11,258 bases of DNA, from assembly GCA_016934535.1 (NCBI GenBank), contig JAFGSQ010000009.1, positions 1 through 11,258 of the forward strand, read 5' to 3'. Shown here in pieces: positions 1,366 through 9,880 of this stretch (position 1 is its first letter; each line of letters starts with the position of its first letter). The translations under genes were made by a program, and so were the position numbers. Source of the DNA: a candidate division WOR-3 bacterium (GTDB taxonomy: Bacteria; SDB-A). The notes under the pieces were generated by a model that saw only the letters and a program-made list of their open reading frames with translations, had not been told where the DNA came from and searched no databases.

Positions 1366-2292
1366 GAGTTCGGCTATTCCCGCCCCTCCCGGCGTAGGGG
1401 CGTAAGCGAGAATGTACGAAAGAGCGACGCCTGTCGCGTAAAGGCCTGCGAGGTCTCTCTCTGGGCTTAAACTCATAGCCAGACACGGTGTAATAAGAAA
1501 ATATACTCCCATCTCCGCTACGGCTATCAAAGAAGCAAGAGCGGTTTTTGACGGATGCTTGTAAAAGAAAGATTCGTAGTTTTTCGCAAGATGTTCAACC
1601 GAATTTAAAAATTTAATCACGTATTTTAAAATCAATCCTGCCGCTTTGTTGCCCCTGTTTTTGAACAATATCGCTGACGCCAGCTTTTTCACTGATTTGT
1701 TTTTGAACATTATAAGATAGAAAAAAACAGCTACTGCAAGATAAAAGGCTAGTACGTAATTCGAAAAGCCTGAAAACATGCGGCTTTTAAAAACGCTGTC
1801 CGCGTAAATAAACAGCAACGGCAAAGAGACGACGAGAAAAAGGCCGTTCAAAGCGCTTTTAAAAGTAATGATCGCGACGCTTCTTGAAAAACTGCATCCG
1901 GATTTTTTTAATATATAAATTTGATAAGCTATTCCTCCGCTTTGAAGAGGAGTCACGGAGGATAAAAAAAACGGACAAAAAGTGAATCTGGCTGTTTTGA
2001 CGAAAGAAAAAGAGACACCCTGAGCCCTTGTTATCAGCATCATTTTAAGAACACTCAAAGTCATCTGAAAAAAAACGAGGACGAACGCCAGAAAAATGAA
2101 AAAAATGTCAGCACTGGCAACGGCTGTTTTTAAAGAACAAAAACCCTGCATCCATCTTTCGGTGAACGAACCGCCTTCTGAGATATTCAGAGGAATGAGA
2201 AGTATCCACGCTGAGAGAGTCAGCAAAACGAAAAGAGCGATCCCTTTCCGGATTTTGCCCGGATCAATAGGAATCGAGATCTTGTTTTTCAA
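1180..2292 (-). CDS. Flippase-like / LPG-synthase-TM (YbhN-type) membrane protein, copy 2
   Basis: A 370-residue polytopic inner-membrane protein with multiple hydrophobic helices. It carries the two hallmark motifs of the UPF0104 / lysylphosphatidylglycerol-synthase transmembrane family (PF03706, COG0392): TPLQSGG followed by YQIYIL at residues 114-128, and APTPGGAGIAEL from residue 298. Known members of this fold include the membrane half of MprF and the YbhN-type proteins, linked to lipid or lipid-linked sugar transfer or flipping. No MprF-like aminoacyl-transferase domain is attached, so the substrate cannot be stated. The ATG start overlaps the end of the upstream paralogue by 29 nt, and only a weak AGAG lies 8 nt before it, suggesting translational coupling. 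The last 61 codons overlap a convergent small gene. Confidence 0.88.
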   Translation of the reverse strand: MKNKISIPIDPGKIRKGIALFVLLTLSAWILLIPLNISEGGSFTERWMQGFCSLKTAVASADIFFIFLAFVLVFFQMTLSVLKMMLITRAQGVSFSFVKTARFTFCPFFLSSVTPLQSGGIAYQIYILKKSGCSFSRSVAIITFKSALNGLFLVVSLPLLFIYADSVFKSRMFSGFSNYVLAFYLAVAVFFYLIMFKNKSVKKLASAILFKNRGNKAAGLILKYVIKFLNSVEHLAKNYESFFYKHPSKTALASLIAVAEMGVYFLITPCLAMSLSPERDLAGLYATGVALSYILAYAPTPGGAGIAELSGISFALSWDGPVTALILLWRIVAHYAPAVVGGVLLFIFVGRDIPDKKGSPVFNPGPGGQD

Positions 2293-3313
2293 TGTGCAGG
2301 ACTCTAAGAGAAATCACGGCTCCGAGAACAGTCGGTATATAGCAAGTAATTATCCTCCAGGCTAGAGTCAGAAGGCTTATAACTGGAGAACCTTTTGGAA
2401 TGAAATGACTGAAAGTGCTGCTGAAACCAAGTTCGACAAGACCGCTCCCGCCCGGAGTCGGCGCGAAAAGAAATACGAAAGTCAAAATGAGCTGAAGAGC
2501 CATTGTCTCGATTATTCTGAAATTGTTAAGACCCATGCCGTACATTAAAAAAGCCGGAATAAGGTAAACCATCATCAGAAAAAGAGCCGTACATAGAAAA
2601 GCGAGAAAGAGCATCATTTTGCCTGTCTTGAGATATGTTCTGAGACCTTCCTTGAAAAAATTGATCTCTTTAAAAACTTTACACACAAACTTGAAGTAAA
2701 ATCTCGGTTTCTTTTTTGTCTTGTTCCACATAAATCTGCCTATTCGGTAAAAGAAATTTTTTGTGTACCTGGGTTTGAAGGCGATGAATAGCGAAACCGT
2801 TACGCCCACTGTTATTGCGGTTATCACCCAGAAAAACATAGTGACTGTCAACGGATTTTTGGGAAAATAGGGTATTACAACGGGGATAACGAGCACGCTG
2901 ACTGCGAGCTGGAGTATACCTCTGAAAAGAAGAACAAGAGTCGCCTTGCCGGGAGATATGTTTTTTTTGTGAAATATATACATCTGAACCGGAAGACCGC
3001 CGGTTTGAAAAGGGGTGACTGTCGCCAGGAAGATTCCCGATACTATGACTTCTATTGCAGTCCAGAGTTTTATTCTCTCTCCTGAGCCCATCACGAGAAG
3101 CTTGGTTCTCAAAGCGTCCAAAAGGATTGCTCCAGCCCACAGGCCGAGCGATATGAGCAGAAAGAGAGGGTTTATGTCCCTTAAAATCTGGATTACCGAT
3201 TCTCTTGTCGCGTTCTTGAGAGAAAAGAAAAATATAAGAAGGAGGGTTACGAACGTTATTGTCAAAAAAAGCCTGAAACCGAGGGCTATCTGCTTGGTGA
3301 GTTTACCCGCCAA
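2264..3313 (-). CDS. Flippase-like / LPG-synthase-TM (YbhN-type) membrane protein, copy 1
   Basis: A 349-residue polytopic membrane protein of the same family as its downstream neighbour. It has TPFQTGG with VQMYIF at residues 100-114 and APTPGGSGLVEL from residue 284, plus several long hydrophobic helices, the first at about residues 10-31. It shares architecture with copy 2 but most other positions differ, so the duplication is old or the two were acquired separately. Translation appears to start at TTG 3313. The codon just upstream is the in-frame TAG of the previous gene, so no earlier start is possible, and a GGAG lies 11 nt before the TTG. Substrate unknown; a role in envelope lipid or glycolipid handling is a family-level inference. 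Confidence 0.88.
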   Translation of the reverse strand: MAGKLTKQIALGFRLFLTITFVTLLLIFFFSLKNATRESVIQILRDINPLFLLISLGLWAGAILLDALRTKLLVMGSGERIKLWTAIEVIVSGIFLATVTPFQTGGLPVQMYIFHKKNISPGKATLVLLFRGILQLAVSVLVIPVVIPYFPKNPLTVTMFFWVITAITVGVTVSLFIAFKPRYTKNFFYRIGRFMWNKTKKKPRFYFKFVCKVFKEINFFKEGLRTYLKTGKMMLFLAFLCTALFLMMVYLIPAFLMYGMGLNNFRIIETMALQLILTFVFLFAPTPGGSGLVELGFSSTFSHFIPKGSPVISLLTLAWRIITCYIPTVLGAVISLRVLHIEKQDLDSY

Positions 3314-4240
3314 CTAAAAACGAGCTCCGATTGAAAAATAATAATCGAGACGGTCGGCTTTAAAATCATCGGTCTGACCCCAGCATGCGGCGGAAACAAT
3401 ATACCTGTCGCGCGCAAAAGTAGTGCCGAAAGAGAAAAGTTTTGCGCCGTCTTTTTCAACATAACCGGTGGAGGCTTTGGCAGGGCCGTAGAACGCCTGA
3501 ATACAGTAATGGTGAATCACGCTCCAGTCTTTTTCGGAGTACTCAAAATCGTAAGCCGCAGAGGCGTATTTCATAGACATCGAAATTCCGGCTCTGTAGG
3601 AAGAGGGAACGGTGATCTCATCGTCGAAGACTTTTCCTGCAAAGTTTTTCGCGCTGACACCCATGGCAAAATGTGAGATAACAATCGCAAGACCAGCGTC
3701 TACGAAAAAACCGTGAGCGGGAAATGCTCTGAAAATAAGCGAATCTTCCGCGAATTGACCCGAATCCGGATATGAAATCTCCCTGTAAGAGGCGTGAAAG
3801 TATTTTATCGTGCCGCCTACTGAGAATGAGGATAAATCGGCATCCCTTATAGCAAAAGAAAGGCCGGCTTCGTCGGCTCTGAGCAAAGCGCTCGTTTTTC
3901 TTCCGGAATAAGCGGTGTCTGTACGATCTGCTTCGAGTATTCTCCAATAAAAAGCCGTTTGAGGAGAGGATATGAGAACCGAATTGACGTATTTTCCGTC
4001 GTAGGCAGAGTATTCACCGAAGCCAGTGCAGGCGGAGTCCTTGTCCCTGACTCCGTAGTACGATACAAGAACCGAGGAATAATATGAAAAGGGCAGCATT
4101 GCGGGATTGTAAAAAACCGGATCGTCCGTTAATGCCGTCCCGGTCCCTCCGCATCCCAGAGAGTATGCCGATGTTGGCATCCCGAAATAGCCGGGTCTTT
4201 CAAAGAAAAATCCCACAACAAGAAAAAATGTCAAAAACAT
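3314..4240 (-). CDS. PorV/PorQ-like outer-membrane beta-barrel protein
   Basis: A 308-residue protein with a short hydrophobic export segment (residues 1-12). The N-terminal pattern AYSLGCGGTGTALTDDPVFY followed by NPAML corresponds to the 'LGMGGA...DD...NPA' signature of the PorV/PorQ and FadL-like barrel group. The rest is alternating aromatic and small residues typical of beta strands. It includes DAGLAIVI..GVSAKNF and VPSSYRAGI segments seen in that group, and ends in an aromatic residue (GARF) as outer-membrane barrels do. PorV and PorQ are T9SS outer-membrane components in Bacteroidetes. Placement opposite a C25 peptidase with a sorting tail supports that link, but a general PorV-superfamily barrel is equally compatible. 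ATG 4240 is forced by an in-frame TAG three codons upstream; no Shine-Dalgarno is visible. Confidence 0.75.
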   Translation of the reverse strand: MFLTFFLVVGFFFERPGYFGMPTSAYSLGCGGTGTALTDDPVFYNPAMLPFSYYSSVLVSYYGVRDKDSACTGFGEYSAYDGKYVNSVLISSPQTAFYWRILEADRTDTAYSGRKTSALLRADEAGLSFAIRDADLSSFSVGGTIKYFHASYREISYPDSGQFAEDSLIFRAFPAHGFFVDAGLAIVISHFAMGVSAKNFAGKVFDDEITVPSSYRAGISMSMKYASAAYDFEYSEKDWSVIHHYCIQAFYGPAKASTGYVEKDGAKLFSFGTTFARDRYIVSAACWGQTDDFKADRLDYYFSIGARF

Positions 4241-4276: not shown

Positions 4277-4342
4277 TCAAATAGCTTTGAAAAATATTAG
4301 GTGCAATGAGTTTTTTGTACGGTAAGATTTGTTTGAACAAGC

Positions 4343-4349
4343 AAAGGAG
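4343..4349 (+). promoter_or_regulatory. Shine-Dalgarno AAAGGAG setting the GTG start at 4356
   Basis: AAAGGAG is 6 nt before GTG 4356. It excludes the longer TTG reading at 4329 and places a clean signal peptide at the N-terminus. Confidence 0.85.
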
Positions 4350-4355
4350 TTTAAG

Positions 4356-7300
4356 GTGAAAAAAATTATAGCTGTGTTGTTCATTTTTTCAGCCTGCCTT
4401 TCCGCTGAAACGTTTGAATATGTTTTTACTTTCGAAGAACCTGACAAACACAATTTTTTGAGCCCCTGGGGTGATTCATACGAGTTTTATTACCTGCCTG
4501 GCAGACCTGTTGTTTCAGCGCCTTCGTGTCCGTTTATTTATTCGGAGACCGAGATAATAAAATTGCCCTCTGGTTTTGTGGTTGAAAATATAAGCGTGGC
4601 GCAGGAGGAAGGGACAATTATCGCAGAAAACATATTTTTGGCTCCCCATCAGGGAACCCAACCCATGAGTTTTATTCAAACAGTTTATTTCGAACCCGAC
4701 CGAAATATTTACTCAAAAGACGCCCTCTATCCAACAGATAATATTTTGTCCTACAAACAGGGAAGAGCGGGAAGCGAAAACCTGCTGGCCATAGCGATTT
4801 CACCTTTGCAGTACAATCCCGTGAGAAAAAAATTATTCTTCAACGAAAAAGTCGGAATAATTGTCGAAGGACGTTACACCGGTGTATCTACAACTGCTGT
4901 TCCGGAAAGCGTCTCCGACACTGACATGATAATAGTTACTGTTCCAAATTACATGCCCGCAGCCGATAGCCTGGCTCAACTTCACATTAAAAGCGGCATC
5001 AACTGCGCCGTCAGAACAACAGAATATATAAATCAAAATTATCAGGGAAGAGACATCCAGGAAAAGATAAGGAACTGCATAAAATATATGAACGAAAACC
5101 ATTCCGCCTCTTATGTCCTGATTTTGGGCAACTGGCAGGCGGTTCCCGGAAGATATTGTCACATCGAAATGCAGAGTCTTTCCGAAGACATTCCATCCGA
5201 CCATTACTATTCCGACTTGGACGGCTCCTGGGACGCCGACAACGATAATGTTTTCGGTGAGATAGAAGACAGTCTCGATATGTTCCCGGAAATGAGCGTG
5301 GGCAGAGCGTGTGTCGGATCTTCTTCCGAAGCTCTCGATTTTTTCAATAAAGTGAAGTCCTACTGCACGAGTGATTCGCTTTTTTATCCGGAGAACATTA
5401 TTTTTATGGCCAGCTATCTCGACGCCAACACGGACGGGGGAGTGGCGAAAAATTACATAGCCGACAATCTGATAAGCCCTGTTTTCACCGTCCACAGGCT
5501 TTACGAATCCCTTTCGAATCTCAACATCGGGTCCTTTCAGGACACCTGTGAACGTTACGGATTTTCTTTCCTGAATCACATTGGACACGCCGGAACAAAT
5601 TCGATGCAGTGCGGACCGGATTATCTCGAAAAATCCGACGTCGACAACCTTTCGAATTTTTCAAAGTACGGAATCGTTTATTCGACGGGATGCTGGGCGG
5701 CCGCGTTTGACGACGACTGCGTGGGCTGGCATTTCGTCTCGAATTCCTCCGGCGGAAGCATAGGATTCATCGGAAATTCAAGATACGGATGGTTCACTCC
5801 CGGGTTTCCCGGATGCGGCAGTTCGGAAGTCATAGATTACAATTACTTCAGAACCGTGCTGTCCGAAGGCGAAAACGTTCTCGGAAGATCGTTTTCTCTT
5901 CACAAAATACCTTACATAGCGTTGTCCGGACAGGCTAACGATTACAGGTGGATAATGTTCGCGCTTACTTTATTCGGAGATCCGGCGCTGTACCTTAGGA
6001 CTGAAGCCGAATTAACCGAGATGGACGTGTTTTTACCGGGAACTGTTTTCCCGGCCGGAAGCGGAGTTATCAGCGTTTCAGTAAAGGATTTGACTGGAAC
6101 CCCACTCGAAGGCGTTATTGTTTCTCTTACTTCGGCAGGAAGTCTGATAACGGCAGGTCTGACGGACGCCTCCGGCACTTGTTTTATTCCGTACAACGGA
6201 GTGAGCTCAGGTGACGGCGTGATATCCGCGTCCGGAGCAAATCTCGTTTTCGAGCAAGTTCCTGTTCAATTCGGAGACGCCGCATACAGAATACAGATAG
6301 ATTCGACAATATATGCCGACACTTTTCCTGCCTGCAACGCCGACGGTAAGTTTTCATCCGGAGAGACTCTCGAATACTCAATTTATATAAAAAATACGGG
6401 TTCGTCGGCCTTGACTTCTTTGACAGGAGACTTGGCTTCAGACAGCTCATTCATAGGATTTATAATTTCAAGCGACACGATAGCTTCCGTCGCTTCGGGC
6501 GGCGAAAGTGTCATGACCTTTATTATTTTTTCTGAACCCGGAATAAACAACGGAACGCCGATGAATTTGAACCTTAATCTTGTAACCGCTTCTCTCGACG
6601 ACACTTTCAGCCTTCCGTCGGTCATACAGAACCCCGAAATGCACTGCACAGGCTTTAGATGTTTGGACACAATCAGCGGCAACGGCAACGGTTTTTTTGA
6701 ATCCGGAGAGACCGCTCTCTGGGAATTCACGTTTGAAAACGCCGGTTTTTCAGATCTTTTCCCGGGACAGACAGCAATACACCTGAACACAACAGAAGTG
6801 ACTGTCAATGACAGCTTTTTTTCACATACCCGCGTCAATGCAGGTAATGACATGACGATTCCCTTCGTTTTAACAGCCTCTTCGAATCTCCCTGCCGAAT
6901 TTCAGGCTCTGTTCACATTTACGTCAGGAAATCTTCCTGTTCCCGATGAATACTCTGTAAATCTCACCACTGGAATTTTCGGTTTCACGGACGACATGGA
7001 AGGGGACACATCTTTGTGGGTTCATTCGGGAGACCCGGATCTATGGCACATATCGTCACGACGTTACTCTTCTTCATCGAATTCCTGGTACTGCGGCAAT
7101 GAATCGACAGGTCAATATCCTCCTGCTTTCGCCGAGACGCTTGAAACCGTCGTAATGAGATCAGGTCATGACATGGCACTCTCATTTTGGCACTGGTACG
7201 AAGTCGAGGCAGGTTACGATTATTGTATTGTTCAGGCTATAGAGGACGGGCAGTGGAAGAATCTGGCGACTTTTTCAGGAAGCTCTCAGGGCTGGTCCTA

Positions 7301-7712
7301 CGAAGAAATTCTGTTTGACGTCTCAGCCGATTCGTTCAATCTGAGATTTGTCTTTTATTCCGAAGACAATAATAACCAGTACGAGGGCTGGTACATAGAC
7401 GACGTCAGGGTTTTTGGAATGCAGACCGTCGAGGTCGAAGAAAATATAATTGTATCAGCACCTTCTCTCGAATACTCGGGTTCATTCATAACCAACAGAT
7501 GGTCGCTTAATTTGACATGCCCGGAAAATGAAAATGTAAATATATATTTATTCGACGTTTCAGGCAGAACAATTAAAGTTTTACACGAAGGGATTCTGGC
7601 GAGGGGTTTCCGTTCGTTCGGACTGCCTCAGGACCTGCCCCTGGGCGTATATTTTATAACTGTTGAGGGGAGTTCCTTCAAGGAGAGTATAAAGCTGATG
7701 AAAGCGATCTGA
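4356..7712 (+). CDS. Secreted gingipain-like C25 cysteine peptidase with T9SS-type sorting tail
   Basis: An 1118-residue exported protein. Residues 1-17 are a signal peptide (MKKIIAVLFIFSAC, probable cleavage after LSA). About 18-190 resembles the C25 propeptide. About 195-550 is the peptidase: the family segment YSDLDGSWDADND begins near 285. The catalytic-type histidine lies in NHIGHAG (H411) and the nucleophile in STGCW (C446). The 35-residue gap is close to the gingipain His-Cys spacing, and the domain closes with FGDPALYL near 540-547. Then follow an Ig-like module (about 555-640), two related modules with a repeated SGET motif (G669 and G784, spacing 115), a jelly-roll/MAM-like module (about 879-1030) ending in EGWYIDDVRVFG, and a C-terminal Por-secretion/FlgD-like tail (about 1048-1118; LFDVSGR, LPLGVYFITVEG). 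Expected location: cell surface or secreted. Cleavage specificity cannot be read. A lipoprotein reading at the early Cys is less likely. Confidence 0.92.
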   Translation: MKKIIAVLFIFSACLSAETFEYVFTFEEPDKHNFLSPWGDSYEFYYLPGRPVVSAPSCPFIYSETEIIKLPSGFVVENISVAQEEGTIIAENIFLAPHQGTQPMSFIQTVYFEPDRNIYSKDALYPTDNILSYKQGRAGSENLLAIAISPLQYNPVRKKLFFNEKVGIIVEGRYTGVSTTAVPESVSDTDMIIVTVPNYMPAADSLAQLHIKSGINCAVRTTEYINQNYQGRDIQEKIRNCIKYMNENHSASYVLILGNWQAVPGRYCHIEMQSLSEDIPSDHYYSDLDGSWDADNDNVFGEIEDSLDMFPEMSVGRACVGSSSEALDFFNKVKSYCTSDSLFYPENIIFMASYLDANTDGGVAKNYIADNLISPVFTVHRLYESLSNLNIGSFQDTCERYGFSFLNHIGHAGTNSMQCGPDYLEKSDVDNLSNFSKYGIVYSTGCWAAAFDDDCVGWHFVSNSSGGSIGFIGNSRYGWFTPGFPGCGSSEVIDYNYFRTVLSEGENVLGRSFSLHKIPYIALSGQANDYRWIMFALTLFGDPALYLRTEAELTEMDVFLPGTVFPAGSGVISVSVKDLTGTPLEGVIVSLTSAGSLITAGLTDASGTCFIPYNGVSSGDGVISASGANLVFEQVPVQFGDAAYRIQIDSTIYADTFPACNADGKFSSGETLEYSIYIKNTGSSALTSLTGDLASDSSFIGFIISSDTIASVASGGESVMTFIIFSEPGINNGTPMNLNLNLVTASLDDTFSLPSVIQNPEMHCTGFRCLDTISGNGNGFFESGETALWEFTFENAGFSDLFPGQTAIHLNTTEVTVNDSFFSHTRVNAGNDMTIPFVLTASSNLPAEFQALFTFTSGNLPVPDEYSVNLTTGIFGFTDDMEGDTSLWVHSGDPDLWHISSRRYSSSSNSWYCGNESTGQYPPAFAETLETVVMRSGHDMALSFWHWYEVEAGYDYCIVQAIEDGQWKNLATFSGSSQGWSYEEILFDVSADSFNLRFVFYSEDNNNQYEGWYIDDVRVFGMQTVEVEENIIVSAPSLEYSGSFITNRWSLNLTCPENENVNIYLFDVSGRTIKVLHEGILARGFRSFGLPQDLPLGVYFITVEGSSFKESIKLMKAI

Positions 7713-8854: not shown

Positions 8855-9880
8855 TCATTCTCCAATCAATAAATAAGGTTTTATTTTTTCAAAAAGCGAG
8901 CTTCCTATGCCTGTGATGTTCAGGAGTTCTTCAAGAGTTTCAAATTTTCCTTTTTCAGATCTGTATTCGACTATTCTCGTGGCGAGAACGGGACCAATAC
9001 CCGGGATTCTGTCGAGAAGAGGTGCGGAAGCCTTGTTTAAGTCCAGAGGGAAAATGCTGGCTGCAATTGTGTCGGGATCAAGTTGAAGTGTGTAGGATGA
9101 GGAAGGTTCCAACGTTTTTAAAAATTCTTTTTTCCAGGACAACGAAGCGGTGTGAGTATATCCGAGATCAGCGTGGTTGGAAAGACCGTAGTGCGAACCG
9201 ATGTTTGAAGCTTCGGCCTCGAAACCGACTGAAAACTCTCCGGGGCTGTCAGTGTATCCGATTATAAAAGAGAGGGCGTTGAACCTGAAACAGAGCGAAA
9301 AACTCTTTCTAATATCTCTGTCTCTGACCTTGAAGGCGCAAAGCCCAATGCTGACGCCGTCGAAATATTCCAGCAAAATGTGCGCGTTTACAGACAAAGG
9401 AGGTTGGTTTGATGAAGTGCCGTAAGTTGTCGAGAGCATGTTTTGAACGGAAACACCAAATCCGAAATATTGATTTATGTCGGTCCATGTATAAAGGTCG
9501 GAGCTCCAGACTATTTTACTGCCGTATCCTTTAATGGACAAGAACATCGGTTTAAAGCGCAGACCCGCTGACTGACCCTTCAATCTGTACGCACACGCAA
9601 ATCCGGTCGTTATCTCTCTGTAGAGTGAGTTGCCGAACTGAGAAGCTGTCACGGAGAAGGAGTATGGATTTTTTGTCCAGGAAACGCCTGCCGAGTAGAG
9701 GTTGAGATCATCCATCGAATAGAGCTGAGTGAAACAGCAAGAAGCTCTCAAACCGTCGGAGAGAGGGATTGAAGGATTAAGAAATACGTTGAAGTGGGAA
9801 ATTTTTGAAACAGGATGGTAGAATTTTGGCAGAGGGTTTAATTCGAAGGCAGAGAAGAGAATTATCCAAAATGCATACAT
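8855..9880 (-). CDS. Outer-membrane-barrel-like protein with C-terminal ComEA-type helix-hairpin-helix domain
   Basis: A 341-residue protein. Residues 1-12 are a short hydrophobic export segment. About 20-255 has amphipathic beta-strand character, with many aromatic/glycine alternations and segments such as GVSWTKNPYSFSVTASQFGN and FGFGVSVQNM, resembling PorV-superfamily barrels. Residues 277-341 form a ComEA-like double HhH: LDLNKASAPLLDRIPGIG, TRIVEYR, then LEELLNITGIG. These contain the PGIG and TGIG hairpins that bind the DNA backbone non-specifically. ComEA proteins take up or hold DNA in the periplasm. With the HhH after the last barrel strands, the tail would face the periplasm. ATG 9880 is forced by an in-frame TAA two codons upstream, and no Shine-Dalgarno precedes it. 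The HhH assignment is secure; the barrel call is from strand pattern only. Confidence 0.8.
   Translation of the reverse strand: MYAFWIILFSAFELNPLPKFYHPVSKISHFNVFLNPSIPLSDGLRASCCFTQLYSMDDLNLYSAGVSWTKNPYSFSVTASQFGNSLYREITTGFACAYRLKGQSAGLRFKPMFLSIKGYGSKIVWSSDLYTWTDINQYFGFGVSVQNMLSTTYGTSSNQPPLSVNAHILLEYFDGVSIGLCAFKVRDRDIRKSFSLCFRFNALSFIIGYTDSPGEFSVGFEAEASNIGSHYGLSNHADLGYTHTASLSWKKEFLKTLEPSSSYTLQLDPDTIAASIFPLDLNKASAPLLDRIPGIGPVLATRIVEYRSEKGKFETLEELLNITGIGSSLFEKIKPYLLIGE

Follow-up and report, generated by a model that had tools for sequence, protein, structure and literature searches.

What role would be served by an outer-membrane barrel that carries a helix-hairpin-helix (HHH) tail of the ComEA type on the same polypeptide? 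This question is raised by a gene on contig C9 of the 2.23-Mb draft genome of a candidate division WOR-3 bacterium, within a stretch of 11,258 nucleotides that was analyzed as a whole (hereafter, the window). In the original prediction, the protein was considered a DNA receptor tethered to a barrel and possibly a single-protein uptake port. The fused protein is best explained as an outer-membrane component for DNA handling, probably for DNA uptake, and the probability of this single best explanation is estimated at approximately 0.52. The gene starts with ATG and comprises the following features.

8855–9880, minus strand: whole gene, 341 amino acids; predicted PorV/FadL-type outer-membrane barrel with a ComEA-type (HhH)2 tail
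9848–9880, minus strand: residues 1–11, short hydrophobic export segment (from the sequence and alignments A1 and A5)
9770–9778, minus strand: residues 35–37, NPS, matching the NPA motif; N-P is invariant in the related barrel family
9116–9760, minus strand: residues 41–255, predicted 14-strand outer-membrane β barrel, the last strand of which begins with LGYTHTASLSW
9614–9634, minus strand: residues 83–89, GNSLYRE, the G-x-x-LYRE motif conserved in the partner-linked barrel family
9053–9115, minus strand: residues 256–276, variable linker with low model confidence
8870–9046, minus strand: residues 279–337, ComEA-type double helix-hairpin-helix (HHH_3)

The domain make-up of the fused protein is well supported, including the presence of a barrel and a ComEA-type HHH region within one exported protein, as had been proposed, and the protein is a new architecture assembled from known kinds of part. 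The export segment is present, although short; it reads MYAFWIILFSA and is followed by FE, a mature-protein start typical of related barrels. HHH_3 (PF12836) matches residues 279–337 with an E-value of 4.3e-21 (75.2 bits against a cut-off of 27), and the two hairpins, PGIG at residues 293–296 and TGIG at residues 323–326, lie exactly where they had been placed. The closest solved structures of the tail are ComEA proteins (8dss, 8dfk, and 2duy; E = 2e-14 for 8dss), and the HHH folds of PsbU and T2SSK are weak matches. The scores against two ComEA models are below the curated cut-offs (60.7 of 152.35 bits for TIGR01259 and 52.3 of 53.1 bits for TIGR00426). The tail and ComEA are alike in the double HhH, its spacing, the GIG hairpins, and the expected periplasmic location, whereas ComEA is soluble or anchored in the inner membrane and the tail follows a predicted outer-membrane barrel of approximately 240 residues. 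The net charge of the tail is 0, and those of ComEA proteins of solved structure range from -2 to +1. ComEA of V. cholerae requires the lysine pair K62/K63 (PMC3879209); the counterpart in the fused protein, at an approximate position, is apparently V298/L299 within GIGPVLA, so that the lysine pair seems absent. The same GIGPVLA is found in Thermus ComEA (2duy).

The fold of the N-terminal part was examined with an AlphaFold2 model built from a 3-sequence alignment (mean pLDDT 49.5). The model contains 14–15 antiparallel strands between residues 43 and 252, followed by the HHH helices, in agreement with the claim that residues 20–255 are β-rich; the expected order of a barrel (approximately 41–255), a linker (256–276), and an HHH region (279–337) was also obtained, at low confidence. 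A separate model of the barrel alone was worse than the whole-protein model (pLDDT 46). The best Foldseek matches of the model are nearly all outer-membrane barrels, and VIA-align gave a Z-score of 21.0 over 205 residues with the 14-strand OmpG and approximately 17 with FadL and TodX. A closed 14-strand barrel over residues 41–255 is thus the best prediction from this weak model. No Pfam family matched the N-terminal 255 residues, the barrel profile retrieved nothing from the sequences of the PDB, and a PHROGs search gave no match. The predicted barrel fold and the N-terminal NP motif, which resembles the NPA motif of FadL, are shared with FadL/TodX; by contrast, the fused protein bears an HHH tail, shows no sign of a hydrophobic-substrate pathway, and has no match to PF03349 (FadL/TodX) at E ≤ 0.1. 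A likeness to PorV and PorQ of the type IX secretion system (T9SS) lies in the predicted 14-strand barrel fold of the FadL superfamily (Z = 16.4 to PorV 8gl6_F). Many relatives of the barrel match the NCBIfam model PorV_fam (NF033709) below its 90-bit cut-off, and those with an HHH-barrel partner (described below) score approximately 50–78 bits. The fused protein itself is shorter, bears the HHH tail, and is below any PorV model, with no match to PorV_fam at E ≤ 1. Because no PorV model is reached, the fused protein is, as judged from its sequence score, a relative of the PorV/PorQ family and not a member.

The barrel and the HHH region remain fused in all four WOR-3 genomes examined, and the homologues in the other three genomes are 71, 59, and 35% identical to the window protein. 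In all four genomes, the fused gene adjoins or is located near asd. Purifying selection acts on the barrel and the HHH region alike because dN is far below dS in each (window versus G002: dN about 0.15 and dS about 1.05 for the barrel; dN 0.25 and dS 1.4, both approximate, for the HHH region). An assembly artefact was considered and dropped, given the persistence of the fusion in four genomes and the selection acting on each part. Immediately upstream of the fused gene, G002 and G003 encode small coiled-coil lipoproteins together with a larger one (L027:6568-7719 and L029:17-1657); the window lacks them at that position, and its neighboring gene there is divergent.

The relatives of the barrel provide the context for the fused protein. 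A profile built from the four WOR-3 barrels was searched against 386 genomes and identified relatives in 60, of which 56 are outside the WOR-3 phylum. Among named records, relatives are found in candidate division WOR-3 and in Desulfuromonas sp. SDB, which is G003 and belongs to the same family; a scan of the contig collection with the profile yielded only two loci, both from the window's own phylum. Many of the barrel genes immediately precede a gene of approximately 510–870 residues, referred to here as the HHH-barrel, which has a single or double HHH at its N-terminus, followed by a long β-rich, outer-membrane-like part, often with an aromatic C-terminal residue. The long β-rich parts are homologous to each other. 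In an hhalign comparison, the window barrels matched 13 partner-linked barrels from other loci (99.7%; E = 6e-26; 226 columns), and the two groups have the motifs N-P, G-x-x-LYRE, YGS, and LG-x-TH in common. A profile of the long β-rich part, with the HHH domains removed, found the HHH-barrel in 83 of the 386 genomes. Both proteins are present in 51 genomes (Fisher p approximately 1e-30, kinship ignored), and 47 of the 88 barrel places have an HHH-barrel gene as the next gene downstream in the same orientation. Most of the well-scoring unlinked barrels (e.g., in G346, G217, G060, G329, G198, G076, and G107) have the partner elsewhere in the genome. Likewise, in the four WOR-3 genomes the HHH-barrel gene is not directly downstream of the fused gene, and the likely partner (587 amino acids on contig C49 in the source genome, with its relatives) is on another contig. 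The HHH-barrel is also found in 158 of 198 genomes of the phylum of G064, and a barrel is directly upstream of it in 26 of the best 30; full-length SprA in one of its members, G205, points to Bacteroidota as the probable phylum. The analysis thus shows how the proteins are built from domains, how they are conserved and related as families, and that their genes are linked. No description of the pair was found in the open-access journal papers searched, and within that literature the system appears undescribed.

Fusion of a barrel to an HHH tail recurs in at least two other families in addition to the four WOR-3 genomes. Briefly, the barrels of L072 and L078 form one family with two HHH motifs and that of L082 has one HHH; each of the three fused genes is followed by an HHH-barrel gene. 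In the barrel tree, the window clade, the L072 and L078 barrels, and two unfused barrels group together (98/98). The fused state requires three changes on this tree, of which at least two are forced by the starred branches; a single gain followed by losses may account for part of the pattern.

The neighboring genes carry nucleic-acid-related domains. Secreted LTD or OB/DUF5689 proteins are encoded by nine of ten upstream genes of long operons, which were chosen by eye and include some matches below cut-off. In the source genome, an operon on contig C54 encodes a 985-amino-acid DUF5689/OB protein that bears a T9SS tail, a 285-amino-acid PorV-like barrel, a 794-amino-acid (HHH)2-barrel, the gene of which overlaps that of the PorV-like barrel, and a 362-amino-acid protein. 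Two in-frame stops reported in a match had suggested that the C54 barrel is a pseudogene; this was dropped, as the 285-amino-acid reading frame is intact. The OB/DUF5689 protein resembles the extracellular nucleases ExeM/NucH in their N-terminal part (E = 2.6e-21), and no nuclease domain was found in the upstream proteins tested, this one included. A second HHH-barrel, the 587-amino-acid protein on C49, is near two LTD-like secreted proteins; PriA-like and NUDIX-like genes are located beside it (L031:4670-10677). The L129–L132 operons are conserved and comprise a DUF5689/OB surface protein, a PorV-like barrel, an (HHH)2-barrel, in some cases a FadL-like protein, and a downstream 5′-nucleotidase, which was identified by a profile match in L129 and by the similar start of the sequence in L130–L132. 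Adjacency of comEC to these genes is rare: the HHH-barrel gene of G064 overlaps comEC by 10 bases and is followed by a RecQ-like gene (L122:6271-10307), and comEC is about 3 kb downstream in G210. In L086, a ComEA gene follows the pair. A domain-level likeness is seen in Riemerella anatipestifer, in which a DUF5689 surface protein (RA0C_RS04920, reported as essential), an outer-membrane barrel (RA0C_RS04915), and an HHH protein (RS02645) are needed for transformation (PMC8459023). Unlike the proteins described here, however, RS04915 carries a carboxypeptidase-regulatory domain, and RS02645, predicted to be periplasmic, has its HHH at residues 236–301 (PMC8459023). Identification of RS02645 as an HHH-barrel was dropped, since the HHH position differs when the two are compared by domain position.

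The competence genes of the source genome bear on the original prediction in two ways. comEC, a secretin, PilB/PilT-like ATPases, and DprA are all present, and a predicted barrel, fused homologues, and comEC with uptake machinery, the lack of which had been named as evidence against the prediction, were all found. By contrast, the expected absence of a stand-alone comEA does not hold, because a separate membrane-anchored ComEA of 175 amino acids is encoded beside pilB/pilT-like genes. The notion of a single-protein uptake port is likewise unsupported: the genome encodes this ComEA, comEC, type IV pilus ATPases, a secretin, and two HHH-barrels (C54 and C49), and other phyla inherit the barrel together with a second protein.

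The preferred reading is therefore of a component that acts with others. We infer membrane insertion, topology, DNA binding, DNA passage, and hand-over to ComEC in the following scheme. The (HhH)2 at the C-terminus of a barrel of the FadL/PorV superfamily would be on the periplasmic side, as expected because both ends of even-stranded barrels face the periplasm, and the protein is a fused version of barrels that many phyla encode immediately ahead of the HHH-barrel. The barrel, the HHH-barrel, and the secreted LTD/OB proteins most likely act together on DNA from outside the cell as it meets the outer membrane: the LTD/OB surface protein would catch DNA, the barrels would allow its passage or retain it, and the periplasmic HHH domains would bind the emerging DNA and prevent back-sliding, a ratchet idea derived from V. 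cholerae ComEA (PMC3879209), before DNA is passed on to ComEA and ComEC. Against uptake, the stand-alone ComEA of the genome and its type IV pilus components could take up DNA without the fused protein, the counterparts of the V. cholerae lysines seem absent, and the structure models are of low confidence. A broader and distinctly more tentative proposal is that the PorV-like barrel and the HHH-barrel, fused or paired, serve as the port by which DNA enters through the outer membrane in phyla that frequently possess T9SS, including that of G064, and that the fused protein is a compact form with the DNA receptor on the pore. The route of DNA across the outer membrane of naturally transformable Bacteroidota is described as unknown; in Porphyromonas gingivalis, ComEA and ComEC are essential, DNA entry into the periplasm is stated to be unclear, and the type IV pilus-like conjugation pilus is not involved in DNA entry (PMC11532111). 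The widespread pair, with a ComEA-like domain built into the barrel, offers named genes and a direct hypothesis for this step. Should the role be other than DNA uptake, a function would still have to be found for an outer-membrane pair that is widely conserved, apparently uncharacterized, and equipped with nucleic-acid-type domains.

Two other roles are each unlikely, at about the same level. In one, the fused protein would be an accessory of type IX secretion, i.e., a PorV/PorQ-like protein that shuttles or anchors T9SS cargo, in which the HHH domains are protein–protein modules or periplasmic spacers and not DNA binders. SprA is matched in 79 of the 83 HHH-barrel genomes (p = 9e-34, kinship ignored), in 59 of the 60 barrel genomes, and in the source genome, and this close tracking makes a real rival of a role tied to T9SS, or of common descent among the phyla that have T9SS; a T9SS role is also consistent with the sub-threshold PorV_fam scores of the barrel relatives, the T9SS-type tails of the upstream proteins, and the PorU-like C25 peptidase and additional barrel encoded in the window. 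However, the fused protein has no PorV_fam match at E ≤ 1, its HHH domains are closest to ComEA with the GIG hairpins kept, the genetic partners of the barrel family are the HHH-barrel and LTD/OB proteins, and the neighbors carry nucleic-acid-related domains and are not T9SS core genes. Furthermore, the link between barrel and HHH-barrel persists among SprA-positive genomes (p = 3e-12, kinship ignored), and four HHH-barrel genomes have no SprA match.

The other role, in which extracellular DNA is scavenged as a nutrient or anchored for adhesion in biofilms, with the help of nucleases and 5′-nucleotidases, and is not used for transformation, would suit the nucleotidases of L129–L132, the relationship of the OB region to ExeM/NucH, and the distribution of ComEC. 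ComEC is found in 77 of the 83 HHH-barrel genomes and in 282 of the 303 others (93% either way), and co-occurrence therefore gives no support to uptake; three genomes that are 96–99% complete (G108, G149, and G192) have the barrel and the HHH-barrel and no ComEC match. Yet the upstream proteins tested show no nuclease domain, the nucleotidase neighbor is absent from most of the shorter pairs seen, and the HHH-barrel gene overlaps comEC in G064. It is improbable that the protein is a common porin or FadL-type channel without any DNA function, whose tail has a structural or other non-nucleic-acid role like that in PsbU or GspK: the weak PsbU and T2SSK matches and the near-zero charge of the HHH region would agree with this, but similar charges are found in ComEA proteins of solved structure, the fusion is seen again in separate lineages, and HHH domains are present in the partner family too.

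The C25 peptidase of the window (4329–7712, plus strand) comprises 1127 amino acids, carries a T9SS type A tail, and is weakly similar to the sortase PorU (NF033707; E = 1e-17, far below its cut-off). Its gene is back to back with another outer-membrane-barrel-like gene (3314–4240, minus strand), and further WOR-3 genomes (L028 and L029) preserve this layout; the two may be a PorU/PorV-like pair or the peptidase may be an ordinary secreted one. Downstream of the barrel-like gene, two overlapping tandem genes (1180–2292 and 2264–3313, minus strand) encode LPG-synthase-TM (UPF0104-like) membrane proteins.
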